The translations under genes and the position numbers were made by a program. This document shows, in pieces, positions 10,605 through 57,142 of a DNA stretch of 59,908 nt. Every line of letters starts with the position of its first letter. Positions within the stretch are counted from its first letter, which is position 1. A model generated the notes under the pieces. It saw nothing but the letters and a program-made list of their open reading frames with translations, searched no databases and was not told the origin of the DNA. The stretch is from Bacteroidota bacterium. GTDB taxonomy: Bacteria; Bacteroidota; Ignavibacteria; Ignavibacteriales; Melioribacteraceae. Location of the stretch: contig JAMCSN010000338.1 in assembly GCA_023381535.1 (NCBI GenBank), positions 1-59,908 of the forward strand, written 5' to 3'.

Positions 10605-10651
10605 TTTATTTCCTCCAGGGAACTATTTATTCTAAAACTTACCTTATTATT

Positions 10652-25547: not shown

Positions 25548-26306
25548 TTAAACGGTATTCTGCCTTAGTTTAGTTGCGTATCTTTTACTGATTTCAAACG
25601 ATTCCGGAACATTTTTAAGATGTACCAAAAAACTTGAGTTATACCATTTTTCCATCTTGACCAAATAATCGATATTAATAATTGTAGAACGGTGAATGCG
25701 TAAAAAATTTTTGCATGGCAGAAGTTCTTCCCATTTAGAAATTGACTTTCTTAGCAGGTATGATTTTCCATCAAGCAAATTGATAGAAGAGTACTGTCTT
25801 TCTGCAACTATGAATAATATTTCATTTATTTTTATAAGATGCGGACTGCCGTTAGCATGTATAAATATTTTATCATCAATTGTGTATTTCTTCGGAGAAG
25901 GACTTTCCTCTGCTTTGGTGAATACACCTTTTAATGTTTCTATTCTATTCAAACGCGACGAGATTGATTTCAGAAGTTCTTCCGATTTGAATGGTTTGAA
26001 CAAGTAATCGTCGGCTCCCAACTCCATTCCAAGCCGAATATCATTTCTTTCTACTTTTGCGGTCAAAAAAATGAAAGGAATTGATTTTGCGCTATCATTT
26101 TTAGACAACTCTTTGAGAACCGAATAGCCGTCCATACCGGGCATCATTATATCACAGATTATCAAATTCGGAAGCTCGCTTTGGGCTATCGTAATTCCGT
26201 CTCTGCCGTTCTTAGCAGTATAAACTATGAAGCCCTCTTCGCTATGTAATGCGCTGATAATTTCCCGAATATCTTTTTCGTCTTCGATAACTAATATTTT
26301 TTTCAT
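25548..26306 (-). CDS. LytTR-family response regulator
   Basis: The 252-residue protein has a receiver domain (1-120; D52 in IICDIMMPGMDG, T and K conserved) and a C-terminal LytTR DNA-binding domain (about 150-250), with LRIHRSTIINIDYLVKME and the typical RQYSSINLLDGKSYLLRKS. It would bind pairs of direct repeats at target promoters. Its start overlaps the stop of the 999-residue sensor kinase by four bases (ATGA), making that kinase its most likely partner. The next gene downstream (REC-kinase) begins 124 bases on. Confidence 0.95.
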   Translation of the reverse strand: MKKILVIEDEKDIREIISALHSEEGFIVYTAKNGRDGITIAQSELPNLIICDIMMPGMDGYSVLKELSKNDSAKSIPFIFLTAKVERNDIRLGMELGADDYLFKPFKSEELLKSISSRLNRIETLKGVFTKAEESPSPKKYTIDDKIFIHANGSPHLIKINEILFIVAERQYSSINLLDGKSYLLRKSISKWEELLPCKNFLRIHRSTIINIDYLVKMEKWYNSSFLVHLKNVPESFEISKRYATKLRQNTV

Positions 26307-29302: not shown

Positions 29303-29310
29303 AATTAGTA

Positions 29311-31083: not shown

Positions 31084-31087
31084 CGTT

Positions 31088-33316: not shown

Positions 33317-33348
33317 AGCACAAAAGATATCTACATGTAGATTCTAAA

Positions 33349-36300
33349 TTAGAATTTAACTGTGAATACAGAACCTTTCCCTTTTACGCTTTCTACCGTA
33401 ATTGTTGCGTTGTTAAGATCACAATATTTTTTTACGAGCGCCAATCCCAAACCGTTGCCTTCAAAACTTCTGGAATATCCATGCTCTTCTTGTGTAAAGG
33501 GATTATACATGTGAGCCATAAATTCTTCCGACATTCCAATGCCTGTATCGGCAATACTTACAAATACTTTTCCTTCGGCAACTTTATCCACTGTTAAATC
33601 AACTTTGCCTTCTTTGGTGTACTTAATCGCATTATCTATAAGCTGAAAAAATATTTGTCTAACGGAATATTCATCGGCATAAATGTTAGCATCCGTTGTC
33701 TTACAATGTAAATTGAATTCAAGATTTTTTTCTTTAGCAGCGAATATGAATTCATTGTATATATTGATAAGAAATTTGCCGGAAAGATTCAGTTCCACCG
33801 GCGTAAAATGGTAACTATCGGTTTGTATTTCCGCCATGTTAAGAATGAGATCGACTGTTCGAATAATTCTTTTACCGGCGCGATCTAAAGAATTAAACAT
33901 TGTGAATAATTCAGGTTCGATCTTGTCTTCCAATTCATCTTTCAGATAACTAGTTGAACTGACAATGACATTAATTGGTGTTCTTATTTCATGCGACATT
34001 TGGGCAAGAAATTCAGACTTTATCCGCTCGGAATTTTCGGCGGCATCTTTGGCTTTTATCAGTTCCTGTTCATACAACTTTATGTTGGTAATATCTGTAA
34101 TTGTTCCAACGTAACCTTCAATTTGACCTTCGGAATTAAATTCGGGAATTGCTTGACCCATCACCCAGGCAGTAGTTCCGTCAGGACGAATGAATCTATA
34201 CTCTGTAACCGACGATTGTCTTTTGTCAGTAGCAGATTTCCAACCTTTAGCTAACCATATCTTGTCTTCCGGATGAACCGCTCTAAGCCAGCCGTCTCCT
34301 AATGCTTCATCCGCTTTCATTCCAGATAATTGGCACCACTTTGGGTTCACGTAGGTTGTATAACCGTCTGCTCTGGTCCGGAATATGCCTACAGGAGAAT
34401 TTTGCGCGAGCGTTTGAAACAACAGTTCACTTTCACGTAATGCTTCTTCGGCATGCTTGCGCTCGGTTATATCGAGAACTGCAGTTAGGGATGCCGGTTT
34501 TCCATCCAGCACAATTGACTCGGCAGACATAATTCCTATACCTATTTCCCCGGTCTTTTTGCGAAACATGAATTCGAAATCACGTAGAACACCATTTGCA
34601 ATAAAAAAGTCATTAGCGCGCTTGCTTTCGGTTGCATCTGCCCATAATTGCAAGTCTTTTCCACGGTGTCCAATTATATCCTCACGGCTAAATCCCGTTA
34701 ACTTTAGAAAAGCACTGTTTACATCCACGAATAGATTTTCATTATTCTGAATTGACATTGCTATAGGTGATGACTGGAACGCCTTGTTGAATTTTTCTTC
34801 CGATGACCTTAACGCTTCTTCCGCTTGCTTGCGCTCGGTTATATCTTGATTAACTATAATTGCACCTTTGATATTGCCGCCAGCATCGCGAATTGGAACT
34901 CCAGAATTTAAAATTGTTTTCCGTGTGCCGTCAAAGCACTCTATTCTTATTTCTTCATTAAGAGAAATCTCGCCTCTTGTTATAGCTTTAGCTGCAGCCC
35001 ACTCATCGGCTTCAATTCGTTTACCTGTATCAACCCACCAACCTTTATATTCTCCGTATCTTTCCATGCCAACCAATTTGGCTCCTGCCCATATTTTTTC
35101 TCCCTCTTTGTTACCAAACTTGATCCTTCCTTTTTCATCAATTACCCAAACACCAACCGGTAAAGTTTCCAATACAACCCGTAATAGTGCTTCTTGCTGC
35201 TTGAGAGCTTCTTCGGCATGCTTGCGCTCGGTTATGTCTTCCTTTACAGCCAAGAAAAATATTCTGTCATTTTTAATCGGTACAATTGTAGCTGATTCCC
35301 AATACAGTTCACCGTTCTTTTTCTTATTGTGAAATTCACCTCTCCATTCTTTGCCGGATTTAATAGTTTTCCAAAGTATTTCATACTCTTCTTTTGATTT
35401 CTCACCGGAGCTTAATATTCTTGAACTTTTGCCTTTTACTTCTTCAAAAGTATATCCGGTCAACTCAATAAATTTTCGATTTACATATTCAATCTTACCG
35501 TCTTCATCCGTAATTATGGTTATAGCCGGGCTATTTTCTACAGCGCGGGAAAGAAGTAAAATTTGTTCTTCGGCGCGTTTTCTTTCGGTAATGTCTGCTG
35601 CAACGCCAATTAGTGCGATAGGATTATTTTCAAAGTCTTTTACAACAGATGTGGAAAGGTAAACCGGAAATTCTGAACCGTCTTTTCTCTTGTTAATCAG
35701 TTCCCCTTTCCAATTGCCTTCATTTGTGAACTTCAAAACCTCTTGCTGTATTTCGGGCGTGACTAGCGAACGGGGCTGAACAATGGATATATGCTGCCCT
35801 ATCAACTCTTCCTTTTTAAACCCATAGGTTTTCGTGAAGGACTCGTTTACATACATAATTTTGTTCTTGTCATCTGTAATTGAAACACATTCGTTTATGC
35901 TCTCAAGAGAATGAGCCAGCATCCTTATTTCTTTTTCAGCTTGTTTCTGCGCGGTAATATCCACCATTGTTCCGAACAAAACTTCTTTCTTTAAGTCCTC
36001 GTCATACATCAGCGATACGCTATCATACACCCAAACATAAGAACCATCTTTTTTCTTCAACTTCATAACATAATCTTTCACTTCTTTTCGTTTTCTCAAT
36101 AGCTCAATAAGTCTTTCTCTATCCTTTGGATCAGCATATAAACTTTTAGCAGAAATCTTTTTGATGCTTTCTATTGAGTCATAACCTAACACTTTTAAGT
36201 ATTCATTATTGCATTCTATAATTTGCCCTTCGATTGTCGCTTTAAAAATTCCGGCGAGACTTCTTTCAAAAAGATTACGGTATTTCTCTTCGCTTTTATC

Positions 36301-37323
36301 GATCGCTTTTTGAGTTTGTTTTTTCTCGGTTATATCTCTTATATGCGCAACAACGTTCGAGAGACCGTTTATTTCGATCAACTTCGTATAAACTTCCGCG
36401 TTTAGAATTGTACCGTCTTTTTTTATGTAAGTTCTTTCAATTAGTCTATCACCGGTTACAGTTTTACGGCTAAATTTTGCGGGTAAAAGATGTTTTTGTT
36501 CATCGGGCCAAATAATATGATGTGATTTTCCTTTTAATTCCTCTTTAGAGTATCCGAAAATTTTGCACGCCGCAGTATTGCAATCTGTAATTATGCCGTC
36601 TAAATCCGCAACAATAATTCCGTCTGCCGATAACTCAAATAAGAAGTGGTATCGTTTCTCGCTGCCTTCAAGTTTAAGACTCAACTCCTCTCTTTTAAGA
36701 ATATCTCTTACTAAACTTGTGCTGAGAAGTATAACAATAACAGAAATTACAACACCGCTAAGTGCCAAAAGGGTGACAATTTCTTCTAAGCTTGCGATTG
36801 CTTTCCGTGCATCATTATCAAGTTTTTCTCTTTCATATTTTTCAATTGATTGGATTGTATTTTGTAAAGTGTCGATGAACAACTTGGCTTCATAGTCTTT
36901 ACGTGCCATCGTTTCTAATACCGCCCCATCTTCTTCACGTGTTTTAATTATTTCATCGAACTTTGCAAGAGCATTAACCATCAAACGTTCGGAAGCTACA
37001 AACCTTTTCTGAATATCTTTCTGTGCGTTCAACGCAGTTTCCAAATCGCCAATTAATCTGTTTAATCTCTTTCTTGCATCATAAAATGCTTCCAGATATT
37101 CTTTGTTACCGGAGATAATATACCCTCTTTCTCCGCGCTGTGCATCCTTTAGAGAAATAAGAACACTGTCTATGTGTAGATTTATTTTTGTTAGAAGACG
37201 TTCTTCCTGATCAGTTTTCAACACCTGATCGGTTTTATTATATAGAACAACGCCTATCATTAAAAGTAGCAGATTGACCAGTAATATGGCATAACTTTTC
37301 TTGTGCTTTTTGAATACCGACAT
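33349..37323 (-). CDS. CHASE3 histidine kinase with seven PAS domains
   Basis: The 1324-residue protein starts with a membrane helix (about 13-30), a CHASE3 domain (AQRGERGYIISGNKEYL) and a second helix (about 185-205). Seven successive PAS modules follow, each ending in a form of DITERK/DITEKK, then HisKA (H near 1108 in FLAQMSHEIRTPI) and HATPase (about 1210-1324, GNGLGLALVKKY). It is the first gene of the kinase run down to 25548, preceded by an AAAAAGGAAG ribosome site. Two PAS junctions share a 29-base identical DNA segment (34442-34470 and 35207-35235), evidence for recent module duplication or conversion. There is no receiver. Confidence 0.93.
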   Translation of the reverse strand: MSVFKKHKKSYAILLVNLLLLMIGVVLYNKTDQVLKTDQEERLLTKINLHIDSVLISLKDAQRGERGYIISGNKEYLEAFYDARKRLNRLIGDLETALNAQKDIQKRFVASERLMVNALAKFDEIIKTREEDGAVLETMARKDYEAKLFIDTLQNTIQSIEKYEREKLDNDARKAIASLEEIVTLLALSGVVISVIVILLSTSLVRDILKREELSLKLEGSEKRYHFLFELSADGIIVADLDGIITDCNTAACKIFGYSKEELKGKSHHIIWPDEQKHLLPAKFSRKTVTGDRLIERTYIKKDGTILNAEVYTKLIEINGLSNVVAHIRDITEKKQTQKAIDKSEEKYRNLFERSLAGIFKATIEGQIIECNNEYLKVLGYDSIESIKKISAKSLYADPKDRERLIELLRKRKEVKDYVMKLKKKDGSYVWVYDSVSLMYDEDLKKEVLFGTMVDITAQKQAEKEIRMLAHSLESINECVSITDDKNKIMYVNESFTKTYGFKKEELIGQHISIVQPRSLVTPEIQQEVLKFTNEGNWKGELINKRKDGSEFPVYLSTSVVKDFENNPIALIGVAADITERKRAEEQILLLSRAVENSPAITIITDEDGKIEYVNRKFIELTGYTFEEVKGKSSRILSSGEKSKEEYEILWKTIKSGKEWRGEFHNKKKNGELYWESATIVPIKNDRIFFLAVKEDITERKHAEEALKQQEALLRVVLETLPVGVWVIDEKGRIKFGNKEGEKIWAGAKLVGMERYGEYKGWWVDTGKRIEADEWAAAKAITRGEISLNEEIRIECFDGTRKTILNSGVPIRDAGGNIKGAIIVNQDITERKQAEEALRSSEEKFNKAFQSSPIAMSIQNNENLFVDVNSAFLKLTGFSREDIIGHRGKDLQLWADATESKRANDFFIANGVLRDFEFMFRKKTGEIGIGIMSAESIVLDGKPASLTAVLDITERKHAEEALRESELLFQTLAQNSPVGIFRTRADGYTTYVNPKWCQLSGMKADEALGDGWLRAVHPEDKIWLAKGWKSATDKRQSSVTEYRFIRPDGTTAWVMGQAIPEFNSEGQIEGYVGTITDITNIKLYEQELIKAKDAAENSERIKSEFLAQMSHEIRTPINVIVSSTSYLKDELEDKIEPELFTMFNSLDRAGKRIIRTVDLILNMAEIQTDSYHFTPVELNLSGKFLINIYNEFIFAAKEKNLEFNLHCKTTDANIYADEYSVRQIFFQLIDNAIKYTKEGKVDLTVDKVAEGKVFVSIADTGIGMSEEFMAHMYNPFTQEEHGYSRSFEGNGLGLALVKKYCDLNNATITVESVKGKGSVFTVKF

Positions 37324-43043: not shown

Positions 43044-46000
43044 CTACTTTGTTGCACCTACCAGGTTAAAAAATCCATCCGTTTCATCTGTTACTGTAGC
43101 ATCGCTCGCGTCTGTAATTCTAATCTTACCTAAAGAGGACACGGTCGCCGGAGTCGTCCAGTCGTATGCACCAGTGCTTTGTACATTGCTGACAATGTTC
43201 GTCCACGTTTGGCCATTGTCCAAAGTAAAATCGATATTAACGTTATTAACACCTTTCGACAACCATTCAATACGTTTCGGGGTGTTCACAGTCCATTGTT
43301 CTCCACCATTTGGTGTAACAACACGGATGAACTTCTTATAGATTGCAAATGTATTATCAGATTCATCAAAGGCACCGGCAATAGTCGGATTGGCAGCATC
43401 ATATTCAGAAACACGTATTTTGCAAAGTTCCGAACCAATGAAACCTCCGGTAGTGGTCGGTAAGTTTAATGTTGTTGGTACAACCCAATCATAGAATCCT
43501 GTATTATCCAAGTTTTCGCCGATAGTCGTCCATCCGGTTCCATCATTCAACGTGTATTCAATCTTAACTTTAGCAACGTTTACAGACCCCCATTGAATCT
43601 GGTATTTTTCTCCCTGAATCCAACTTTCACCACCATTAGGAAATGACACAGTAATTGAAGTTTTAGGCAAAACTGTAAAAGTGCCTGCACTTGTTGCAGA
43701 AGGTGACCCATTAACAGCTTCAGAAATTCTTACCTTGCAATCCGTCGAAGGTTGAGGGAATCCAAACGAGTATGAACCCGCGGCGGCAGGTGTGCTTGAA
43801 ACAATTGTTTTCCACTCCACTAAACTGGAACTGCTGTTGGTAGTGTATTCTATCTTAACATAATCTATTCCAATAGCGGTCCATGTTATGTTGTAGGACT
43901 GTCCAGCCCTAATGGTTTCATTGCCATTAGGAGCAGTGAGCGTAATTGACGCGACAGGTTTAATTGTAAATGTATTCGGGCTCTCTGACGAGGGACTTCC
44001 ACTAATATCACTAACTCTAACTTTACATTGTGTTGATTGCGTATTTGGAACAGCCCAACTGTAAGACCCAGTATTTGGAATTGAGTTTTCTATGGTATTC
44101 CAAGTTAATCCGTTGTTAGTACTATATTCCAATTTAACATCAGTGACACCGACAGCAGACCAGGTTATTAGCTTTGAAGTATTAGCATCCCACACCTCCC
44201 CGCCAACAGGACTTGTTAGTGTGATCGATTTAACAACTTGATTGGTGATAGTAAAATTATTATCGGATATATCAATTGGACTGCCAAACAACGCATCACT
44301 CACTCTAACTTTGCATTGGTAAGAAGTGAGATCGGGTAAATTATTCCATGTATAAGCGCCAATGCTCGGAGTAGAATTTGTAATAATTGTCCAGTTTGCG
44401 CCGCCATCAGTTGTGTATTCAATTTTTACGTTCGGAATGTTTTCTGACGAATACGTTATCGTTTGCTGAGATCCGCTTTGCCAAACTTCCCCTCCGTTCG
44501 GCGATGTCACTTTTACCGATGGAGCTGGTGTAATTGAAAATAAATTGTCGCTTACATCACTGGTTGCCTGATCCTGAGCATCGCTTATTCTTATTAAACA
44601 ATTTGTAGATGGTGTACTTGGCAATTGTGACCAAGTGTAAAATCCCGTGCTTGGCGTACTTGATACTAACGTACTCCAATTTATTCCATTGTTGAGTGTA
44701 AACTCTATCTTGACATTTATTACACCCATTGCAGACCAGGTTATACTCTGGGTTGATCCTGCGGCCCATTTCTCTCCTCCGTTCGGACTTGTTACAGTAA
44801 TCTGCTTTGCTTGTTGGTTCGTGATTGTAAAATTATTGTCCGATATGTCCGATGGACTTCCGTACATTGCATCGCTCATACGCACTTTGCATTGATAAGA
44901 TACAAGGTTAGGTAAATTATTCCAAGTATAACTGCCTGTACTTGGTGTTGAACTTGTCAACGTTGTCCAATTCGCACCGCCATCGGTCGTGTATTCAATC
45001 TTCACATTCGGAATGTTCACCGAGGTATATTTTATAGTTTGAGATGTGCCGCTTGCCCAAACTTCACCGCCATTCGGTGACGTCACGGCAATCGACGGCG
45101 CCGGTGAAATCGAAAACAAATTATTACTGTCATCAGATGGAGAACCGTCTTGAGCATCGCTGATGCGGATTTTACAGTTTGTTGAAGGAGTATTCGGCAA
45201 CTGCATCCATGTGTAAAAACCTGTACTCGGCGTGCTGGAGGTAATAGTATTCCACGATATTCCATTATTGATAGTGTATTCAATCTTCACGTTTGTAATG
45301 CCGGATGCAGACCAAGTAATATTTTGTGAAGTTCCCGCAGCCCATGTCTCTCCACCGTTAGGACTGGTCACCGCTATCAACTGGTTGCCCGGCGTATTAA
45401 TCGTAAAATTATTATCAGAATTATCACTTGGAATTCCATCACTAGCATCACTGATGCGAATCTTACACTGCAACGAACTAACATTCGGTAATCCATTCCA
45501 ACTATAAACGCCAGTACTTGGCGTGCTTGCAACAATTGTTGACCAGGTTGCCCCGCCGTCAATAGTGAATTCAATTTTTACATTCGCAGTATTTGTCGAT
45601 TGCCAAGTGATGTTGTTGCTTGAACCCGCATACCATTGCTCTCCGCCATTTGGTGAAAGGACTTTAACAGTCTGCTCGGGTAAAATTTGAAACGGGTTTG
45701 GACTTTCGGAAGATGTTACTCCATCTTGCGCATCTCTGATTCTAACCTTGGCAAGAGTTGTCGGAGTATTAGGTATCGGCAGCCAATAATAGATACCTGT
45801 GTTCTTGGTGGAATTAGAAATTACATTCCAATTCTGACCGTTATCAATCGTGTAATCTATCTTAACCGAATCAATTCCAGAACTGTACCAGGTAATTTGT
45901 GCCGAAGTGCCCGCTTGCCATGTTTCTCCGCCAACCGGAGATGTAATTCTTAAACTTTTATTTGCATTCTTAACAATCGAAAAAACTTTATCGCTTCTGT

Positions 46001-46349
46001 CGCTGCTTACACCATCAAGCGAGGACACCTGAATAAGACATTGACTGGAAACAGCATTTGGTATCGGGAACCAATTATATAAACCGGCATTTTGCAAACT
46101 ATCTTTTACTAGAGACCAACTGGTTCCGTTGTCAATCGAATACTGAATGCGAACTAAAAGTGTTCCGGTACCTTCCCACGTAATCTGATAACTGGAACCT
46201 TCGGCTAAAGTTTCTCCTCCGTTTGGCGTTATAACTTTGATGGCTGTATCGCCGGAGCCGGGGGTTTGGGGAGTTGTAACGCCCTCTTTGAACTTACATG
46301 AGGAAAGAATTAACAAACTAACCAAACAGCATATTAATATTCTTTGCAT
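43044..46349 (-). CDS. Surface lipoprotein with 11 Kre9/KNH-like repeats
   Basis: The 1101-residue protein starts with a lipoprotein signal (LLILSSCK, lipid cysteine about 18). Eleven repeats of about 95 residues follow, each opening with a form of TSPNGGExWxAGTSxxITW. Each continues NVKIEYTxDGGxxW and STPSTGxYTWxxLP, and closes CKIRISDAxDGSPSDxSDNxF. This is the pattern of the Ser-Thr-rich GPI-anchored/Kre9-like domain (Ig-like fold) common in bacterial surface proteins. Repeats 4-5 and 6-7 are alike as blocks (see findings). A GAGGAA ribosome site lies five bases before the start. It probably acts in adhesion or surface binding; there is no catalytic domain and no sorting domain. Confidence 0.85.
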   Translation of the reverse strand: MQRILICCLVSLLILSSCKFKEGVTTPQTPGSGDTAIKVITPNGGETLAEGSSYQITWEGTGTLLVRIQYSIDNGTSWSLVKDSLQNAGLYNWFPIPNAVSSQCLIQVSSLDGVSSDRSDKVFSIVKNANKSLRITSPVGGETWQAGTSAQITWYSSGIDSVKIDYTIDNGQNWNVISNSTKNTGIYYWLPIPNTPTTLAKVRIRDAQDGVTSSESPNPFQILPEQTVKVLSPNGGEQWYAGSSNNITWQSTNTANVKIEFTIDGGATWSTIVASTPSTGVYSWNGLPNVSSLQCKIRISDASDGIPSDNSDNNFTINTPGNQLIAVTSPNGGETWAAGTSQNITWSASGITNVKIEYTINNGISWNTITSSTPSTGFYTWMQLPNTPSTNCKIRISDAQDGSPSDDSNNLFSISPAPSIAVTSPNGGEVWASGTSQTIKYTSVNIPNVKIEYTTDGGANWTTLTSSTPSTGSYTWNNLPNLVSYQCKVRMSDAMYGSPSDISDNNFTITNQQAKQITVTSPNGGEKWAAGSTQSITWSAMGVINVKIEFTLNNGINWSTLVSSTPSTGFYTWSQLPSTPSTNCLIRISDAQDQATSDVSDNLFSITPAPSVKVTSPNGGEVWQSGSQQTITYSSENIPNVKIEYTTDGGANWTIITNSTPSIGAYTWNNLPDLTSYQCKVRVSDALFGSPIDISDNNFTITNQVVKSITLTSPVGGEVWDANTSKLITWSAVGVTDVKLEYSTNNGLTWNTIENSIPNTGSYSWAVPNTQSTQCKVRVSDISGSPSSESPNTFTIKPVASITLTAPNGNETIRAGQSYNITWTAIGIDYVKIEYTTNSSSSLVEWKTIVSSTPAAAGSYSFGFPQPSTDCKVRISEAVNGSPSATSAGTFTVLPKTSITVSFPNGGESWIQGEKYQIQWGSVNVAKVKIEYTLNDGTGWTTIGENLDNTGFYDWVVPTTLNLPTTTGGFIGSELCKIRVSEYDAANPTIAGAFDESDNTFAIYKKFIRVVTPNGGEQWTVNTPKRIEWLSKGVNNVNIDFTLDNGQTWTNIVSNVQSTGAYDWTTPATVSSLGKIRITDASDATVTDETDGFFNLVGATK

Positions 46350-48334: not shown

Positions 48335-48646
48335 ATGATTTCGGCATTAATTTTCAGTGCACATTTAATTTTCATTCTTATCATCTTCACAAAAAAATGG
48401 CAGAATGAATCGCTTGCCACGGCGTTCACAAATTTGGCATTGATTATTGTTTTGTTCGCGGTGGGATGGTCGATTGCAACTGCAGTTGTAAAACTTTTCA
48501 TCGACAGCAAAGGTTTCGGGATTCAGTTTGACTCCGACACAATTTCTCTTACGCTTCTTTCAATCGTAGAATACTTCTTTTACAAATTTTATTACCACGA
48601 AGATAAAACCGAACAAACCGTTACTGCAGACGATACGGAAAAGTAA
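48335..48646 (+). CDS. Small membrane protein, unknown
   Basis: The family is not recognised. The 103-residue protein has two membrane helices (about 3-19 and 30-53), a polar segment and an acidic tail (HEDKTEQTVTADDTEK). It begins one base after the previous stop, so it is part of the same plus-strand run. Its last 26 bases overlap the 3' end of the convergent tonB-like gene. Confidence 0.6.
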   Translation: MISALIFSAHLIFILIIFTKKWQNESLATAFTNLALIIVLFAVGWSIATAVVKLFIDSKGFGIQFDSDTISLTLLSIVEYFFYKFYYHEDKTEQTVTADDTEK

Positions 48647-49322
48647 TCACAACAGTTTGTTCAAGCTGCTTTGCGTTGGAAGGCAAAGGTTCAAACCGCC
48701 ATTGACGCAGTGAGTTTATCGCGGTCATTTCAAGTCTTGCATCGGCTTTAATCAAAGGAATGATATTGCTTACAGTGCCGTCCGGCAAAATTGTAAATCG
48801 AAGACGTAAATCAATTTCTTTTGAAACACCTTCGGGATATTCCGGCAAAGAGTAGCTATAAATTCGTCTAACTCCTCTTCCGCCGAAATCTAATTCAAAA
48901 CCAAATCCTCCGCCGCCCGTACCGTTTCCTTCCGGACCGTATCCGAAACCATCGCCTTTGTTGTTGCTTTTGAAAAGCGGCTTCACTTTACTGGCAGAAG
49001 TTTCATCTTCATTTTTTTTCTTCGAAGGACTTGCAATAGCGTCTTCATCTTTCAACTGATCGGATTTTGGAAGGTCAACTTTTTTATCTTCAACTTTTTT
49101 CTCCGGAGGTGTTTCAGGCGTTAATCCGCCGCTGCCGGGCTGATTACCTTGGCCCGCTGCGCCGCCACCGCCCATTCCAAAACCGGGACCGAACCCAACC
49201 AGAAGATAATCTTCCTGTTGGTTGTTGGCTCCGATACTCGTGAAAACAAGCCAGAGCACAAAGATTGCGTGAACGGAAATGGAGAAAAGATAAGATACTT
49301 TTTTCGGTTCTTTGAAAAACAT
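48621..49322 (-). CDS. TonB-family energy transducer
   Basis: The 233-residue protein has a cytoplasmic start, one membrane helix (about 10-28), a glycine/proline-rich and charged periplasmic linker (about 35-140, with GPGFGMGGGGAAGQG) and a TonB C-terminal domain (about 155-233), seen as LPEYPEGVSKEIDLRLRFTI, ILPDGTVSNI and INSLRQWRFEPLP. TonB or TolA proteins of this form bridge the inner-membrane motor to an outer-membrane partner. It is the last gene of the operon, one base after exbD. The partner may be the barrel encoded at 52590-54179. Confidence 0.9.
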   Translation of the reverse strand: MFFKEPKKVSYLFSISVHAIFVLWLVFTSIGANNQQEDYLLVGFGPGFGMGGGGAAGQGNQPGSGGLTPETPPEKKVEDKKVDLPKSDQLKDEDAIASPSKKKNEDETSASKVKPLFKSNNKGDGFGYGPEGNGTGGGGFGFELDFGGRGVRRIYSYSLPEYPEGVSKEIDLRLRFTILPDGTVSNIIPLIKADARLEMTAINSLRQWRFEPLPSNAKQLEQTVVITFPYRLQ

Positions 49323-49323
49323 T

Positions 49324-49725
49324 TTAGAATGTTAACGAATCAGTTTGCAAATTTATTTTTTTTATCCCGGCGGTTTTAAGCGTCTCAACAAGTCTGGCAA
49401 TTAAACCGATCTTCACAGACTTATCCACACGAATTGTAAAATCGTTTTGAACATTTTGTTTCAGCGCCGATACTTTATTAGCAAGATTGGAAAAGTTGAC
49501 CTCGTCAAAGCCCAAATACATCTTTCCGCGTTCGTCAATTATCATCAACGCTTTGGGTAAATCTTTTTTATCATCAATAATGGTTCGGTAGATATTAACG
49601 CTAACACCGGGTTGTGAAAGAAAATTTGAAGTCATGAAAAAAAACATCAGCAGAAGCATCACAACATTGACAAGCGCACCTACGTTGAACGAACTGACAG
49701 TTTTCAGTTTGGTCTCAAATTTCAT
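49324..49725 (-). CDS. exbD: ExbD/TolR-family protein lacking the essential aspartate
   Basis: From the ATG at 49725 the protein has 133 residues. The start overlaps the exbB stop by 11 bases, and the longer reading from 49770 adds residues that do not match the family. One membrane helix (about 15-35) is followed by a periplasmic domain. In ExbD and TolR the helix begins NVTPFIDVML, with an aspartate (D25 in E. coli ExbD) that carries protons. Here the aligned stretch is NVGALVNVVML, so the aspartate is N20 and the proline is alanine. The codon is AAT and the frame is sound. The periplasmic domain (IDERGKMYLGFDEVNFSNL and IRVDKSVKIGL) looks normal. Confidence 0.88.
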   Translation of the reverse strand: MKFETKLKTVSSFNVGALVNVVMLLLMFFFMTSNFLSQPGVSVNIYRTIIDDKKDLPKALMIIDERGKMYLGFDEVNFSNLANKVSALKQNVQNDFTIRVDKSVKIGLIARLVETLKTAGIKKINLQTDSLTF

Positions 49726-50368
49726 TGTTCTGCTCACTAATCTGCGGTTGATCCTTGTCATTGCCGTCAATGACGTCGATCAACTCGGTGACAATTCTCT
49801 CGATATCCAAAACAATTTTTTTTACTGCGTTCACAAAATAGTTGTACAGCGCTAAAGAAATCATTCCTACAATCAAGCCAACCGCGCTGGTAATTAATGC
49901 TTGCCAAATTCCACCGGCGAAATCGGCAACGGTAACGCTGCTGTGCAAATTCTGAATTACTCGAAAGGTTGAAACCATTCCCATAATTGTTCCCAAGAAT
50001 CCAAGCATTGGAGAAGCGGTTGCAAGCGTTGCAAGAATCGGAATTCCTTTTTCAAGTTTACTAATTTCCTGCTTGCCGCCGAGTTCAATTTCTTCAAGAA
50101 ATCTTTCTCTTCCAAATTTATATTTCTTCAAACCTCTCCGCATGATGTTTGATATAGTCGATTTATCTTCCATGCAGAAATCGATCGCTGTTTGAATTTC
50201 TTTCCTCTTTAAGATGTTCCGCATCTTCACCGAGAAAGTTGGAATATTAGTTTTCGCTTTTCTCAGCGCAGTCAACCTTCCATAAGAAATGAAGATGATA
50301 ACAACCAGACAAATAACCAGCAACCACAAAACCACTCCGCCGCTCAAGAGCATTTGAATCCATCTCAT
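49715..50368 (-). CDS. exbB: ExbB/TolQ/MotA-family protein lacking the conserved glutamate
   Basis: The 217-residue protein has three membrane helices (about 8-28, 105-130 and 150-175) and the family motifs ASPMLGFLGTIMGMVSTF and GGIWQALITSAVGL. In ExbB the second motif usually reads GIxEALxxT, with a glutamate (E176 in E. coli) facing the channel. Here that residue is Q156 (codon CAA) and the following TT pair has become TS. The threonine of the first motif (LLGT) is kept. The gene follows the HU-SPOR gene by 15 bases and overlaps exbD by 11 bases. Confidence 0.9.
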   Translation of the reverse strand: MRWIQMLLSGGVVLWLLVICLVVIIFISYGRLTALRKAKTNIPTFSVKMRNILKRKEIQTAIDFCMEDKSTISNIMRRGLKKYKFGRERFLEEIELGGKQEISKLEKGIPILATLATASPMLGFLGTIMGMVSTFRVIQNLHSSVTVADFAGGIWQALITSAVGLIVGMISLALYNYFVNAVKKIVLDIERIVTELIDVIDGNDKDQPQISEQNNEI

Positions 50369-50383
50369 AATCGAAATCCGGTT

Positions 50384-52564
50384 TTATTTAAAATTGTTTT
50401 CGCGCATGAATTGCCGTGTTGCGTTTTCGGAATTGAACGGCCCGATCCTGACGCGGTACCAAGTTCCTCCTTTTTGAGGAAGATACGCTTCAACTAGATA
50501 AGCATTAAAATTAAGCGACCGCAATCTTTGCACCTCTTGCTCGGCAGTTGCTTTAACGCGCCATGACGAAGCTTGGAAATTGTAATTCTTCCCATCATAG
50601 TAAATCGAATTGGTAATGCGCGTATCGGTCTTCGGCGTTCTGTATAAATTGTTTTTTGTTTCGACCGGTTGTTTGGATGATGCCGATAAATTTTTTGAAT
50701 TCGATGCGCTAAAATCAGACGGCATTTTTTTTGAACCTTGTGAACTCTTAACCGGCACAGGCGGTGTTGCCGATATCGGAAAATCGCTTGGCTCATCCAG
50801 CAAATACTTGGATGAATCCGGAGCGTTCTCTATAGCAGCTTTTATCGAATCTATTTTCGCCTGTGCAACATTCTGCGGCGCCGGCTTCAAGCTTAAATCA
50901 GTTGACTGCGAACTGTTTCTCATAACTAAGTAAACCGCAATAGCCACAACAGCAAAGATGGAGAGATATAACAAATACATTTTGGAACCGGTTACGTCAC
51001 GTTCCCGTATTTTGCTTACTGGTCTCTCACTTCTTTCGTCGGCATGACTTGAACGTCTTTCAAAATAATCGCCCGGCTCTTCAGCCAAACTAATTGCCAT
51101 GCGACTGCGCCGTTCTTCCTCTGAAGTTTTCACCGGAACAAATTCATATTTCGAAGGTGAAGAAGGAAACTCCATAAAAACTTTGTCGTCTTCCTTTGAC
51201 ACATGTTTCTTCAACGGTACTTCGGTTTCCAATGTTCGTTTCGGCTCTTCGTGAAAATCATCGTCAAGGAAAGCTCTGTCATGTTCAAGAGTTTTTTCAA
51301 GCTGAGCGAATAGATCCCGTATCGTTTCTTTATCAGTTTCAAGTTCAGGTTCGTGCTTGGCTTTGCCATCGTCGATCATTTCATAGTTGGCTTCTTCACT
51401 TTCCAAATGACCGAGACCAAATTCTTCCCGCAGTTCGTCGCCCCAGTTCCACTCAATTTTTTCTTCTGTCGGTTTTTCTGAGTCAAGCAGTTCTTCGATC
51501 GGTTCTAAGTCCTCGTCGAACTCTTCGGTTGCTTCATTCTCGGGCTCGCGAACCTTTTCTTCCTGAACTACATCTTCTTTCTGCTCGTCAGCATAATGTT
51601 CTTCTATAAACTCTTCTTCAGGTATATGTTCAATCGTTGGTTCTTGCTGATTAAGAAAAGCAGAAACATCAATGGTATCAAGGATTTCCTCTATATGTTC
51701 ATCCTTCATCCCGGGAGTTTCAATTTCATTTTGTTTTGGTATTTCCGCCGAATGATCCGACAGCAATTCCGCAAGAAGCGTTTCAGATGATTTCCCTTCG
51801 GAATCAAGATTTTCTTCCGCCAAATTCTCTTCGATCTGTTCGGAAATCATCTCTTGAACTTTTTCTGATTTATCCGGCAGAGAATCAAACTCAACCTTTG
51901 GCATTTCATCTTTTTCATTTTCAGAAGAACCGGAAATTTCCGGCAATCCTTCAATCAATGCTGAAAGGATATTTTGTTCTTCTTCGTGCGAAACATCGTG
52001 CGGTTCTTCAGTGGCTTGACTGAAAACAATATCGGAAGTCAAATCAGAAAGTGTGGATTGAGTTTCTTCTCCTTGCAAAGCCGGATGAGAAAATTTGTAG
52101 TAGTCTTCAAAAATATTAAAGTTAGGAATTTGGTCCGATTCGGAGATAAGTTCTCTTGCTCTTTCTTCAATCGATTTTTTCAAAACGGTGAAAGATGTTT
52201 CTGAATTCGGAAGGTCGTCAATTGTCAACGGAAGCAGCGGCTTCCCCACACCAATGCTGAAAACATTTGAATCCGGCTCGCGTATATCTTTGAATTTCGG
52301 ATGAACTTCAAAAGTAAGATAGAGGTTGTGGGAATCATGAGTGAAGTCAACCGAAAGCGGCGTAAAGATTACAGGCCGATTTGGTCCGTTCTTCGTATCG
52401 CTCGTTTTCAGTTGGAAAAAACCAATTCGCGGAACTTTAAGTGTGATCCCCTCGTAAAGACTTTCATAAATTCTCTCCGAGAGAACTTCGAAAGCTAATT
52501 CGCTCTGCGAGTTGGAAACACCTAATACTTCGGCTACTTTTTTTTGAAGTTCTTTTAAATTCAT
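50384..52564 (-). CDS. HU-domain / transmembrane / SPOR-domain protein
   Basis: The 726-residue protein starts with an HU/IHF-like fold (about 1-85; MNLKELQKKVAEVLGVSN, and later KVPRIGFFQLK in place of the usual DNA-binding arm). A very acidic, low-complexity linker follows (about 150-500), then one membrane helix (about 528-548, YLLYLSIFAVVAIAVYLV) and a C-terminal SPOR domain (about 650-726, VKATAEQEVQRLRSLNF, then WYRVRIGPF). HU-CCDC81/SPOR proteins are known in Bacteroidota. SPOR domains bind peptidoglycan stripped of stem peptides at division sites. The topology puts the HU end in the cytoplasm, perhaps touching DNA, and SPOR in the periplasm. It is the fourth gene of the envelope operon. 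Confidence 0.87.
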   Translation of the reverse strand: MNLKELQKKVAEVLGVSNSQSELAFEVLSERIYESLYEGITLKVPRIGFFQLKTSDTKNGPNRPVIFTPLSVDFTHDSHNLYLTFEVHPKFKDIREPDSNVFSIGVGKPLLPLTIDDLPNSETSFTVLKKSIEERARELISESDQIPNFNIFEDYYKFSHPALQGEETQSTLSDLTSDIVFSQATEEPHDVSHEEEQNILSALIEGLPEISGSSENEKDEMPKVEFDSLPDKSEKVQEMISEQIEENLAEENLDSEGKSSETLLAELLSDHSAEIPKQNEIETPGMKDEHIEEILDTIDVSAFLNQQEPTIEHIPEEEFIEEHYADEQKEDVVQEEKVREPENEATEEFDEDLEPIEELLDSEKPTEEKIEWNWGDELREEFGLGHLESEEANYEMIDDGKAKHEPELETDKETIRDLFAQLEKTLEHDRAFLDDDFHEEPKRTLETEVPLKKHVSKEDDKVFMEFPSSPSKYEFVPVKTSEEERRSRMAISLAEEPGDYFERRSSHADERSERPVSKIRERDVTGSKMYLLYLSIFAVVAIAVYLVMRNSSQSTDLSLKPAPQNVAQAKIDSIKAAIENAPDSSKYLLDEPSDFPISATPPVPVKSSQGSKKMPSDFSASNSKNLSASSKQPVETKNNLYRTPKTDTRITNSIYYDGKNYNFQASSWRVKATAEQEVQRLRSLNFNAYLVEAYLPQKGGTWYRVRIGPFNSENATRQFMRENNFK

Positions 52565-52589
52565 GCCGATTTATTTTTTTCGAACTAAA

Positions 52590-54179
52590 CTACCATCTGT
52601 ATTCAATGCCTGCTAGAATATCAAACGGCTTTTCTCGGTATTGCCTCCAGACAAAGTTACTTCTATTTAAAATGTTTTGAAAGCCCGCTGTGATCTTGAA
52701 CCCCTTCAGCAATTCGTATGAAAACGAAAGCGATAAATCGTTATAGTCTTGAAGTTTGTCCGTGTTGGCAAGGTCTGTATAAGCATTGAGCGCCAGCATG
52801 TATTTTGCTTTTATGCCGAGACCGAAATCAAAATCATATCCGTACTCAAGGGTTGAACTCGCTTCCGGTTGATATGGAATTTTGTTGCCCGATTGATCTT
52901 TGGCATCTTGAATTGTAAGATCACCCATGAAGTAGCCGTAAATACCGGTGTAATAATACATGTTCAGCTTTCCGAAAAATATTTTGGCTTCGGGCAAAAA
53001 TCGCAAATCAAATTTTCCGGGATTAACAACGTCGCTGAAATAACTAAAATTTTCCGTTTGGCTGTATCCGCCGGAAAGCGTAATGGTCATGTATTTATCG
53101 TTTTCGTACTTCAGCATACCAACAAAATTATGTTTCACTTTTTCGAATGCGTTATCATTAGCGCCAAGGTTGTAGTACAAATTTCTTCCGATAAGATCCC
53201 GCACAGAATAGAAGTTGGTATGCGGCTTATATTCGGCATCAAAAGAAAAATTCTTATCAATCTGGTATTGCACAGCCGCAAACGTGGCAAAGAAGTTATT
53301 GTTCCCCACTGCCGAATAATTAACACCGGCAGAAAATAAAAGAGAATTCATCGGTACAAATTTTATGCTGCCTTCAACCGAATAATAATTGTAATTACTT
53401 GTCGAGCTCAAATTTCCTTGAAGCGTTTGCCGTTTGTAAGTTCCGTTGAAACCAAGTTTAAATCCGTTCATCTTAATATCGAAAAGCGCATACGGATTTA
53501 TAACCGATTCACGGAATCCGTTTTCATTGAGAGACAGCACGTTGACATTGACACCGGCGCCGTAATTAACCCACCGGTTCAAGGAACTCGAAATTGAAAA
53601 CTGTCCAATACCCTTGTTCGATTCGCGCAGTAAATCCGGCGTAGGCGACGCGTAAAATTTATATGAATCGCGTGAGTACTGAGCAAATACTTTAATAGCC
53701 GTTCCGGGAAGGAATTCCGATTTGGTTGAAATGAAAAAGTTGTGAGTCATCGAAAGACCTGAAGTATTGAACCCGGAGTTGCTAAGGTAATCTTTAATAT
53801 TAGAACCCCAAACCCGCGCGTTGAACAAATAGTTGTCGAGCGATTTTGTCATGCTGAGCTCGCCGGTCGGAAAAGTATATCTGCCGAGCCGAATCTTTAG
53901 ACTTCCGTTATAGTACTCATCGAACGTTTTGATATCCGGCTTAAAAGAAACCGTCTGTGACGAAATCATAAGCGGCAGTTCGTCAGGGGTAAATTGCGGT
54001 GTGAAAAAATCTTTTGAAAGCGTCGGTATCAATTCCGGTTTTCCCTTGTGAGCAATTGGAACGTTCACACTTTGTCTTCCGGTTATCACAAAATCCGGTA
54101 GTTCTATTCCCTGCTGTTCGTTCTGAGCAACAGAAAAACCGGAAAAAATCAGCAGCAGAAAAATTGTTATTCGTTTCAT
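52590..54179 (-). CDS. Outer-membrane beta-barrel protein, TonB-linked, without plug
   Basis: The 529-residue protein has a signal peptide (about 1-18), then a short N-terminal segment with IELPDFVITGRQSV, a stretch like the region near TonB boxes in Bacteroidota receptors. The barrel begins by about residue 90 and runs to the end, with strands of alternating aromatic residues (for example LRFLPEAKIFFGKLNMYYYTG). It ends FDILAGIEYRW with a C-terminal aromatic, as barrels do. There is no plug domain of the usual TonB-dependent receptor. Its start overlaps the TPR gene's stop by four bases. With exbB, exbD and tonB downstream it is probably the target of the motor. Confidence 0.75.
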   Translation of the reverse strand: MKRITIFLLLIFSGFSVAQNEQQGIELPDFVITGRQSVNVPIAHKGKPELIPTLSKDFFTPQFTPDELPLMISSQTVSFKPDIKTFDEYYNGSLKIRLGRYTFPTGELSMTKSLDNYLFNARVWGSNIKDYLSNSGFNTSGLSMTHNFFISTKSEFLPGTAIKVFAQYSRDSYKFYASPTPDLLRESNKGIGQFSISSSLNRWVNYGAGVNVNVLSLNENGFRESVINPYALFDIKMNGFKLGFNGTYKRQTLQGNLSSTSNYNYYSVEGSIKFVPMNSLLFSAGVNYSAVGNNNFFATFAAVQYQIDKNFSFDAEYKPHTNFYSVRDLIGRNLYYNLGANDNAFEKVKHNFVGMLKYENDKYMTITLSGGYSQTENFSYFSDVVNPGKFDLRFLPEAKIFFGKLNMYYYTGIYGYFMGDLTIQDAKDQSGNKIPYQPEASSTLEYGYDFDFGLGIKAKYMLALNAYTDLANTDKLQDYNDLSLSFSYELLKGFKITAGFQNILNRSNFVWRQYREKPFDILAGIEYRW

Positions 54180-57142
54180 AGTTGTCTTAGTTTTTTTCTA
54201 GCTTCTTGTGCAAATTCACCCGTCGGATGTTTACTTAACACAGCGCGATACATATCCCGCGCTTGGTTTTTATCTTTCATCTTAACGTAACAATCGCCGA
54301 GTTTCAGTAATGATTTAGTGTACCATTCGTCGAACGATGAATATACCGATCTGACACGCACCAATGCGGTAATTGCATCTGTAATTTTATTCTGATTGAA
54401 CAGAACCACGCCGCTGTAATACTGTGCCTGGGCGCCGATATCGTCCGGTCGTCGTTCGGCAACATCGTTAAAATACTGCGCGGCTTTATCAAGATTGTTT
54501 CTTTGCATCTCGATCAAGCCCAATTCAATTTTTGCTTTCTCTGAAAAAACATTTCCTTCATAATAATTTACAACTTGTTCAAAAGTGGAATACGCATCGT
54601 CCGGCTTGTTGTTTTTCTCCTGACTTGTCCCTTCGAGATAAAGAAGTTCTGGAAGCCGGTTCGAATTTGGCATCCCCGCGATGGTCGACTGCAAAAGTTT
54701 TATCGCGCTGTCAAATTGATTTCTCACCGAGTAAATACGTACTAGTTCTACAACCGCCGAAATTCCGATGTCGGATTTCGGTGAACGCTGAATCACAATC
54801 TGAAAATTCTTCAATGCCTCGTCATCGTTCTTCATGTTCGATGCACTTTTACCGATCCAGTAATATGCACTTGGAACGTATTTGCTGTTCGGATACTTAG
54901 AAAGAAATTCCTGGTATGCGTTTATCGCAAGATTATATTTCTGAATGCTGTAATAAAGATCGCCTTTCTTGAAAAATATTTGGTCGTCGTAAGTGGAAGA
55001 TGGATGATCTGTGATGTATCGATCAATATAAGCTATTGCCTTATCCGGCTGGTTTTGTGCAACGTAGCAGTACTGAATTCCGTTTACCGCATCAAAGACA
55101 TATTGAGAATTCGGGAACCGACTGATTACGCCCGAATAATACGCGATTGACGAATCGTACTGCGCTAAATTAAAATAGGCATCGCCGATTGAGTAGTGAA
55201 CCATCGGTCGAAGCGCAGAACGCGGAAAGCGGGTTAACAAATTTTTGTAATTGGAAATTGCCTCGGCAAAATTATTCTGTTGGAAAAATATCCAGCCGAT
55301 AACGTATTGCGATTGATCAGCATATTTCGAACGCGGAAATTTTTTCTGCAATTCTGTGAATGCCTTAACCGCTTCGGCGGGTTTATCTGCTTTGTATAAA
55401 GACTGCGCGTACTGATAATATGCGTGATCGTTTTCGAGAGAAACTTTCGCACGTGAAAATATTTCCCGGTAAAGTGCGCTGGCTTTATCAAACTTCTTGG
55501 TTCCGAAGTAACTGTCGGCTAATCTCAGTTTTGCATCCGGTGTGTTCGGATCGTTTTTATATTTCGAAACAAACTCGTTGAAATAAAAAATGGCATTCGG
55601 AAAATCTTTCAAATTGAAATACGTGTAAGCTTTCCCAAGAACCATATCTTTTCTAATTTCATCATTGGAAGGCGCAACGGCGCTGTAAGATTTAAGTGCT
55701 TCGGAATATTTGCCTTGAGCAAAATAGCATTCGGCTAAATAGAAATTCACCTTGTCGTTTTCAAATTCCTTGTCGCGCGTTTTCAATTCTTCAAGGTTGG
55801 AGATTGCCGATTCATAATTGCCAGAATAGAATTCAACGACAGCCATTCCAAGCCGCGCTCTATTATTAAGGTCGCGTTGATCATCTGTAAGTTTGAGTGC
55901 TTCATTGAAATAATTTTTCGCATTGCCGTAATCTTTTTTGTTGAGGCGCATTTCTCCGAGCAAAGTGTAAGCTTTTCCGCGCGTTGCTTTATCGCTGGAA
56001 ATTGTTGCGTTCATCAAAGCTTTTTCGGCATCTGCCGGATCGCTTTGTTTATACATAACTGAACCCATTCCTAACTGCGCACGCGATGCGAGAGGACTGC
56101 TAGGATATTTCGCAACGAACTCGGAAAAAATTTCGTTCGCAGCTTTGCTATCGCCCAAATATCTTTTGCATTCGCCGCTCCAGTATAAGGAAGCAACTTT
56201 CAATGAGTCGCTCGTAGAATCGGCAAGCATCTTAAACTTTTTATAAGCGGCATTGTAATCGTTAAGCTGGAAATCGATCCACGCCAAATTGTAATTGATT
56301 CTATTCTTGTAACTCTCACCGTGAACTTGAGGCAAAAATTCGTTGTAAACTTTTGCCGCATCCGAATATTCTTGAAGCCGGATAAAAGAATTGGCAAGAA
56401 AAACTTTTGCTTCAAACAATCTTTCTTCCGGCAATTTTCTAATTAGCGGATCGCTCAGTTCAAGAATAGCATTATCATATTGTTTCAAATTAAAATAGCA
56501 AACGCCGATTCGCATCTGAGATTCCGGCGCCAATGGACTGTCTTTATAGTATGCCAGAAGTTCATCGTAGTACGTTACAGCGCTGGTGTAGTTGGCGGTC
56601 TTCTCATAAAGCTGTCCCAAAGAATAGTAGCTGTTCGGCAGATATTTATTTGTTTCTTTTTGTCCGATAGCATTTTTAAAATTTTCTTCCGCTTCGAGAA
56701 ATTTATTTTCCGCAAAGTAAGCTTCGCCCATCCAGTAATATGCAGATCCGGCGAATTGGCTTTTCGGATATTCAGCAAAAAGAATTTCCAAACGGTCGCG
56801 GCATCTCCGGTAATCTGTCTTTGTATAATAGATGGTTCCAAGTTTGTATAGCGCGTACTCTCTAAGATTGGAGAATCTGAACTTGTCGATAAAAGATTCA
56901 AATGCTTCTGCCGCACCGTCAAGCTGATTCAAGTTCAACAAGCAGTCCGCTTCATAATACTTTGCCATAGCAAGCTTTTCTTCAGCTAGGTTGTCGTTCG
57001 AAACAATATTTTTAAACATCAAGTAAGCCGTACCGAAATCGGAATTCTTATAAGCGTTGAATGCTTGAGCCATACGGTCGGATGAAATTTGAGCAAGCAT
57101 CGCAACTTGAAAACTCAACAAAAGAAAGATTGTTTTTTTCAT
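54176..57142 (-). CDS. Giant periplasmic TPR protein
   Basis: The 988-residue protein has a signal peptide (about 1-17) and then TPR-type repeats along its whole length, about 20-25 units. Many follow the form YYxxGxxYFxxxxYxxAxxxYxxFLxxYPxS (for example SAYYWMGEAYFAENKFLEAEENF), resembling the YbgF/CpoB and BamD kind of TPR. No other domain is seen. CpoB works with Tol-Pal and peptidoglycan synthases in cell division, which fits the SPOR and TonB/ExbBD neighbours. The gene follows the DUF92 gene by six bases and overlaps the barrel gene by four bases. Confidence 0.88.
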   Translation of the reverse strand: MKKTIFLLLSFQVAMLAQISSDRMAQAFNAYKNSDFGTAYLMFKNIVSNDNLAEEKLAMAKYYEADCLLNLNQLDGAAEAFESFIDKFRFSNLREYALYKLGTIYYTKTDYRRCRDRLEILFAEYPKSQFAGSAYYWMGEAYFAENKFLEAEENFKNAIGQKETNKYLPNSYYSLGQLYEKTANYTSAVTYYDELLAYYKDSPLAPESQMRIGVCYFNLKQYDNAILELSDPLIRKLPEERLFEAKVFLANSFIRLQEYSDAAKVYNEFLPQVHGESYKNRINYNLAWIDFQLNDYNAAYKKFKMLADSTSDSLKVASLYWSGECKRYLGDSKAANEIFSEFVAKYPSSPLASRAQLGMGSVMYKQSDPADAEKALMNATISSDKATRGKAYTLLGEMRLNKKDYGNAKNYFNEALKLTDDQRDLNNRARLGMAVVEFYSGNYESAISNLEELKTRDKEFENDKVNFYLAECYFAQGKYSEALKSYSAVAPSNDEIRKDMVLGKAYTYFNLKDFPNAIFYFNEFVSKYKNDPNTPDAKLRLADSYFGTKKFDKASALYREIFSRAKVSLENDHAYYQYAQSLYKADKPAEAVKAFTELQKKFPRSKYADQSQYVIGWIFFQQNNFAEAISNYKNLLTRFPRSALRPMVHYSIGDAYFNLAQYDSSIAYYSGVISRFPNSQYVFDAVNGIQYCYVAQNQPDKAIAYIDRYITDHPSSTYDDQIFFKKGDLYYSIQKYNLAINAYQEFLSKYPNSKYVPSAYYWIGKSASNMKNDDEALKNFQIVIQRSPKSDIGISAVVELVRIYSVRNQFDSAIKLLQSTIAGMPNSNRLPELLYLEGTSQEKNNKPDDAYSTFEQVVNYYEGNVFSEKAKIELGLIEMQRNNLDKAAQYFNDVAERRPDDIGAQAQYYSGVVLFNQNKITDAITALVRVRSVYSSFDEWYTKSLLKLGDCYVKMKDKNQARDMYRAVLSKHPTGEFAQEARKKLRQL

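Follow-up and report, generated by a model that had tools for sequence, protein, structure and literature searches.

The closest described systems to the locus analysed here are the proton-driven motors ExbB-ExbD-TonB and TolQ-TolR-TolA, whose mechanism is given below as it stands in excerpts of the cited papers. Asp25, Thr148 and Thr181 have been called essential (excerpt of PMC12905483). Simulations of TolQRA described a water wire leading from TolQ E173 over T145 and T178 to TolR D23, with water entry only when D23 was unprotonated, and the same source describes the membrane Asp as the proton acceptor which the homologous motors of prokaryotes have in common (PMC12583513, in part). From the constant offset of 3 between the two numberings (T145/T148, T178/T181), TolQ E173 can be read as the counterpart of ExbB E176. 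Replacement of the Asp by Asn has been described for laboratory mutants: ExbD D25N is inactive and in E. coli does not form crosslinks to its partners (PMC11658791), and in MotB D22N the Asn mimics the protonated state (PMC9022066, PMC9389320). As for natural losses, the nearest precedent found in the open-access literature is ExbB3 of Sphingobium SYK-6, which lacks Glu176 and whose deletion did not reduce growth on the carbon sources tested (PMC8599685, in part). Among the papers listed in searches of the open-access literature, with subscription journals mostly missing, there was no natural ExbD devoid of the Asp.

The window, i.e. the whole analysed stretch of 59,908 nucleotides, carries on its minus strand the genes of a TPR protein, a putative outer-membrane protein and an HU-SPOR protein, followed by exbB, exbD and tonB (Table 1). 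The exbB and exbD genes overlap by 11 nt, and both reading frames are intact. The whole region of 48621-57142 looks like a Tol-Pal-type gene cluster, the order of which is kept in Ignavibacteriales-type loci. A literature search on the role of this cluster gave no result, and scans for promoters and terminators remained at chance level. Elsewhere in the window, a PorV-family protein adjoins a 1321-aa peptidase C25 protein (9414-14617), which are type IX secretion components. Four PAS sensor histidine kinases are located at 26303-37323; three of them have CHASE3, one has a sub-threshold dCache_1 match, and one of the four has six PAS_9 stretches. A probably exported 1101-aa protein at 43044-46349 shows a repeated S-P-N-G-G-E-x-W-type motif by eye.

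Table 1. Genes of the exbB-exbD-tonB cluster and the codons discussed in the text (window coordinates).
Feature	Position	Strand	Remark
TPR protein, 988 aa, YbgF/CpoB-type repeats	54176..57142	-	NCBIfam tol_pal_ybgF
Putative outer-membrane protein, 529 aa	52590..54179	-	Outer-membrane assignment by eye
HU-domain and SPOR-domain protein, 726 aa	50384..52564	-	Pfam SPOR 42.3 bits, Bac_DNA_binding 23.9 bits
exbB/tolQ-like gene, 217 aa	49715..50368	-	Pfam MotA_ExbB
ExbB codon 21, CTG = Leu	50306..50308	-	TM1 Ser in Asp-type orthologues
ExbB codon 156, CAA = Gln	49901..49903	-	E. coli ExbB Glu176 / TolQ Glu173 position
ExbB codon 161, AGC = Ser	49886..49888	-	Thr181 position of polar ring
exbD/tolR-like gene, 133 aa	49324..49725	-	Pfam ExbD; periplasmic domain intact, TM helix without motor Asp
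ExbD codons 16-19, GALV	49669..49680	-	SSLT in Asp-type orthologues
ExbD codon 20, AAT = Asn	49666..49668	-	E. coli ExbD Asp25 position
TonB-like protein, 233 aa	48621..49322	-	Pfam TonB_C; SHLS motif S14-H18-L25-S29

Family assignment of the two motor genes was clear at the Pfam level, with 94.4 bits for ExbB (PF01618, cut-off 22.9) and 65.1 bits for ExbD (PF02472, cut-off 25.4). The best NCBIfam names were tolQ (81.2 bits, below the cut-off of 221) and tolR (45.6 bits, below the cut-off of 127.3), respectively. An AF2 monomer model of ExbB (pLDDT 79.5) gave its best match to TolQ (8odt) with a TM(query) of 0.80. The ExbD monomer model had a mean pLDDT of 70.6 with an unreliable linker at 37-55, and its periplasmic domain matched 8p9r and 8vgc, in which ExbD is bound to the TonB D-box, with a TM(target) of 0.82. 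The TPR protein scored 332.5 bits against the tol_pal_ybgF model (cut-off 90.1) over 11 stretches. The 529-aa protein matched neither a Pfam family (E up to 0.1) nor an NCBIfam entry at the thresholds used. Its N-terminus, IELPDFVITG[RK]Q, was conserved in the six loci compared (one starts with V instead of I) and resembles a TonB box. The HU-SPOR protein is found at the same place in related loci.

Compared with Tol-Pal (TolQ-TolR-TolA with CpoB/YbgF), the cluster shares the sub-threshold tolQ and tolR names, the TPR protein that passes the tol_pal_ybgF cut-off and an ExbB model closest to TolQ structures; it differs in that the force arm carries a TonB_C domain and ExbD lacks the proton-binding Asp. 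The Pfam scans of locus genes showed no TolB, and TolB_N gave no match in G001, a metagenome-assembled genome (MAG) which may be incomplete, or in seven of the eight genomes searched. The likeness to ExbB-ExbD-TonB lies in the periplasmic model of ExbD, which matches ExbD/D-box structures, and in the TonB_C domain and SHLS motif of TonB; unlike that system, D25 is replaced by N and E176 by Q, and the Ser/Ser/Thr of the helix is lost. A TonB-dependent receptor domain was not detected by Pfam in the window genes scanned. The SHLS transmembrane motif is one described in PMC12905483 (in part); it is present in full in only 2/107 Asp-type TonBs, so it is no conserved mark of the locus, and S-3X-H occurs in 107/107.

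The hallmark acids of a proton-driven motor, namely the membrane Asp (D25/D23) of ExbD and the TM3 Glu (E176/E173) of ExbB, are absent from the window's proteins. A first-pass annotation of this DNA had placed ExbD N20 at D25 and ExbB Q156 at the channel Glu, and both assignments could be reproduced by alignment against PDB sequences (FNVGALVNV vs INVTPFIDV for ExbD; GIWQALITSAVGL vs GIAEALIATAIGL for ExbB), with the codons AAT and CAA read back from the DNA. Neither the check for a second ExbD which it proposed nor a search for a second ExbB found one in the window, using our own ExbB and ExbD profiles. The annotation expected no usual proton movement without these acids, and for the Glu the case is weaker than it implied: the function of the residue has been called unclear but essential (PMC8599685, in part), and TolQ E173 has been located at the mouth of a simulated water wire (PMC12583513, in part).

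A protein search with the window ExbD revealed 26 relatives. The site was covered in 25, and all 25 carried Asn, including one sequence at 40% identity (P0026). These 25 include the window and 16 sequences with an identity to it of at least 95%, so that P0018-P0024 and P0026 supply most of the independent information. Nine loci were found by scanning named genomes, of which L001, from the MAG Bacteroidetes DBS2-4.bin16, has Asn and Gln. Asp and Glu are present in seven, which belong to Ignavibacteriales, to Melioribacter and, in two cases, to genomes labelled simply Bacteroidetes; L009 ends before the site. Since each of the 11 window genes tested has its match in L001, with the order conserved, the same 11 lie in order in L005-L008, and L002-L004 and L009 carry those of the 11 that their contig ends allow, the loci can be regarded as orthologues.

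In the order to which the L001 genome belongs, 122 of 164 genomes matched the ExbD alignment. Both sites could be read in 122 rows, 118 with Asp/Glu and four with Asn/Gln; the Asn/Gln rows comprise the window plus the L001 place in three copies. After subtraction of 12 from the 122 paired loci (the three paralogues L040, L041 and L122, and nine repeats), Asp was present in ExbD and Glu in ExbB of all 108 Asp-type orthologous loci; this sample comprises most of the matched loci, some weaker or fragmentary matches being left out and L009 having no pair. Asp was likewise found in 90/90 ExbD-family genes from the phylum (70 genomes, better-scoring matches, 30 supplied with the match list and 60 selected from it, six of the genes seen earlier). 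These matches reach down to about 65 bits and the Asn gene of G001 scores 62.7 bits, so weak-scoring variants could be missed. Asp and Glu, the retention of which in close relatives the annotation would have read as a sign of error, are kept only in the more distant relatives. A sequencing error or strain quirk was rejected, as the same residue recurs in many separate contigs. That the sites reflect an artefact of sequencing, assembly or alignment is accordingly given next to no weight: the relatives with source names are all MAGs or metagenome contigs, but the alignment is fixed by flanking motifs as well as by the PDB alignments. For the Asn the artefact is practically excluded, and the Gln in the window's own branch rests on the window, L001 and P0027.

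The ExbB site is less uniform. Among 120 of the 220 ExbB matches, 113 had Glu, five Gln and two Tyr. Within the window's subclade, three of nine ExbBs carry Gln (the window, L001 and P0027) and six retain Glu (P0028-P0033). Gln also occurs outside the acid-poor clade, in P0062, P0069 and P0144, which lie on short contigs, and hence is not diagnostic by itself. Pairs of ExbB and ExbD of the sister contigs were assigned from equal contig sizes (26973, 15541, 4535 and 7184 bp), which gave P0018/P0029, P0019/P0028 and P0020/P0030 as likely pairs of Asn with Glu, and P0026/P0095 as a likely pair of Asn with Gln. As three of the six Glu-keeping ExbBs lie on contigs sized like those of Asn ExbDs, the two residues would appear to coexist.

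Phylogenetic trees were constructed with every second Asp-type locus (54/108). The ExbB tree revealed an acid-poor clade of 12 rows (support 100/99), which nests with the Melioribacter-type Asp/Glu motors. One of its two branches is the window's subclade; in the other, the Glu176 position is occupied by Gln in P0095 and by Tyr in P0058 and P0072. The ExbD tree gave a single clade with Asn or Ile (support 96/94), the Ile being that of P0147 and P0148, in which the motor Asp position has lost even its polarity. The acid-poor clade is related to the Ignavibacteriales/Melioribacter group. With long stems and a short ExbD, the grouping of P0026, P0095, P0058, P0072, P0147 and P0148 with the window's subclade may reflect long branches. 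The topology suggests that a single loss of the ExbD Asp probably came first and that the ExbB Glu disappeared afterwards, on two or more occasions if there was no regain. A simultaneous change of both residues is rejected by the ExbB site counts and the trees. The coordinated pair proposed in the annotation therefore holds insofar as both acids became amides, but the changes do not look simultaneous, the loss of Asp being ancestral and Glu being kept in six of the nine subclade ExbBs. This apparent order, in which loss of the acceptor Asp precedes that of the channel-mouth Glu, is in line with the water-wire mechanism that has been proposed. Compared with the Sphingobium ExbB3, which likewise lost Glu176 naturally, the window's clade differs in having lost the Asp, seemingly as the older change, while the three ExbDs of Sphingobium keep Asp25 (PMC8599685, in part).

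Further changes were found around both sites. In Asp-type ExbDs, the columns before and at the motor residue are almost fixed (S16 105/108, S17 108/108, T19 108/108, Asp 108/108), and in the subclade they read G in 9/9, A in 9/9, and V in seven or A in two of nine, such that the signature S-S-L-T-D became G-A-L/F-V/A-N in the nine members. The TM1 Ser of ExbB is present in 107/108 Asp-type rows (the other row being a gap) and in 0/9 of the subclade (Leu in eight, Phe in one). In the polar ring, position 161 is Thr in 108/108 Asp-type ExbBs vs Ser in 9/9 of the subclade, and T127, the Thr148 equivalent, is kept and invariant in all rows compared. Around the NIBS strand of ExbD, only K42 and the Pro behind V43 are changed (Pro in 108/108 Asp-type; Tyr in eight and Ser in one of nine). 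Loss of the strand itself is not claimed, since in the PDB-sequence alignment E. coli 44-49 corresponds to 40-45 of the window and V47 is kept as V43. Loss of a TM3 Pro was dropped as a part of the change, Pro being present there in only 58/108 Asp-type ExbBs.

Near-invariant columns lost in both the window and L001 amounted to 23/43 in ExbD, 21/72 in ExbB and 0/35 in TonB (93% conservation for TonB; 1/52 at 85%). TonB rows were taken by position, and the control rows L118 and L048, which lose 32 columns, are probably wrong ORFs. As controls, the worst single Asp-type row lost 9/44 ExbD and 7/72-73 ExbB columns, and a long-branch Asp-type clade of four lost 8/47 ExbD, 9/77 ExbB and 5/38 TonB columns. 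Identity to the outgroup L002 was 34% for the window ExbD vs 68 and 66% for two Asp-type relatives, and 44% vs 67 and 67% for ExbB; for the six other genes with data, the window lagged by only 1-10 points. It is in the engine, ExbD and ExbB, that most of the near-invariant columns were abandoned.

The selection acting on these genes was estimated from one sequence pair, the window and L001. The dN/dS of exbD was 0.014 (one non-synonymous and 17 synonymous differences), lower than that of the four other genes measured on this pair: tonB (0.053), the outer-membrane protein gene (0.069), exbB (0.084) and the HU-SPOR gene (0.126). This agrees with the view of the annotation that both genes are otherwise intact, and they look selected. 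The Asn shares its exchange with the MotB D22N and ExbD D25N mutants (PMC9022066, PMC9389320, PMC11658791, all in part); those changes are man-made, and the present one occurs in nature across the clade, where purifying selection apparently acts on it. Decay of the two genes under relaxed selection is very unlikely. It would be in keeping with the long stem branches, the many near-invariant columns lost and the mere 26 relatives retrieved with the window's ExbD, yet the low exbD ratio of this one pair, the Asn in every relative covering the site and the intact frames and operon argue against it.

A replacement for the lost acids was also considered. No new conserved acid was found in the hydrophobic segments of ExbB or ExbD; the candidates for a compensating acid, the newly conserved D51 and D64 of ExbD and D63 and E93 of ExbB, were rejected since all lie outside these segments. 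An ion might still be conducted by another path, perhaps not as protons, through ExbB D149, the Thr/Ser ring and the new Asn and Gln. D149, seven residues before position 156, is invariant in all groups compared, and in the polar ring T127 is kept and T161 is replaced by Ser. However, D149 is equally invariant in Asp-type motors (108/108) and therefore represents no compensation, and the ExbD helix contains no acid, has lost Ser16, Ser17 and Thr19 and shows Ile at the motor site in two sequences. Conduction by such a route is thus considered improbable.

The near-constancy of TonB would suit a different arrangement, in which TonB is powered by another, canonical ExbBD, or in which Asn and Asp ExbDs form mixed dimers, with the local ExbBD serving as an adaptor or half-motor. 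G001, a MAG of the same lineage with five PF01618 places, has two additional exbB-exbD sets in which both acids, Asp and Glu, are present (L040 and L041), both with TonB-like neighbours named by eye, so another motor of the cell may drive TonB. In E. coli, ExbBD and TolQR have also been described as cross-complementing (PMC11658791, in part). Against this stand the low identity of the G001 paralogues (only 24-28% where they match), the possibility that a MAG holds foreign contigs, and the constraint on the local ExbB and ExbD, which the arrangement leaves unexplained. Powering from elsewhere is regarded as a tentative alternative, clearly behind the explanation given next.

The best explanation, to which we assign a probability of roughly 0.6, is that one uncultured clade has switched off the proton engine of a Tol/Ton-type trans-envelope complex and kept its body. 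Among the options named by the annotation, the structural scaffold is thus the best reading. The sequences support a loss of the ExbD Asp at the root of the clade, along with further polar residues of its helix, and a later loss of the channel-mouth Glu of ExbB, at least twice barring regain, with TonB and the gene order hardly changed. Without the negative Asp there would be no water wire, no proton cycle and no power stroke, and without a proton cycle the ExbB Glu would be freed to drift. The window complex lacks both ends of the simulated wire (the E173 and D23 sites; PMC12583513, in part), which would explain the loss of the Glu after that of the Asp. The ExbB pentamer and the ExbD axle may still assemble and hold TonB. 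Together with the YbgF-type TPR, putative outer-membrane and HU-SPOR proteins, they could connect the inner membrane, the cell wall and the outer membrane without being powered. The SPOR domain would suggest the division site as a possible location, a role read from domain names only. The neighbours of the motor genes (the YbgF-type TPR protein and the SPOR domain) and the sub-threshold tolQ/tolR names point to a Tol-like envelope role.

Several observations count against an engine that is fully off. The polar-ring residues T127 and S161 are kept, as are ExbB D149 and, in ExbD, V43 (E. coli V47), and the Glu retained in six of nine subclade ExbBs means that some ion function might persist there. 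A normal contact between an Asn ExbD and TonB is opposed by the crosslink failure of D25N in E. coli (PMC11658791, in part). A more specific and doubtful proposal is that the 5:2 rotary motor has turned into a passive bearing, a torque-free trans-envelope tether for TonB, in which the Asn fixes the axle in a neutral, 'protonated' state that turns or slips without ion flow.

If the passive-bearing proposal is true, selection can act on a function of the Ton/Tol scaffold that needs no proton motive force. The clade has dropped the Asp, with the genes under apparently strong selection and TonB almost unaltered, and would represent a natural separation of the scaffold from the engine. The acid-poor clade makes proton-independent roles of Ton/Tol complexes testable.
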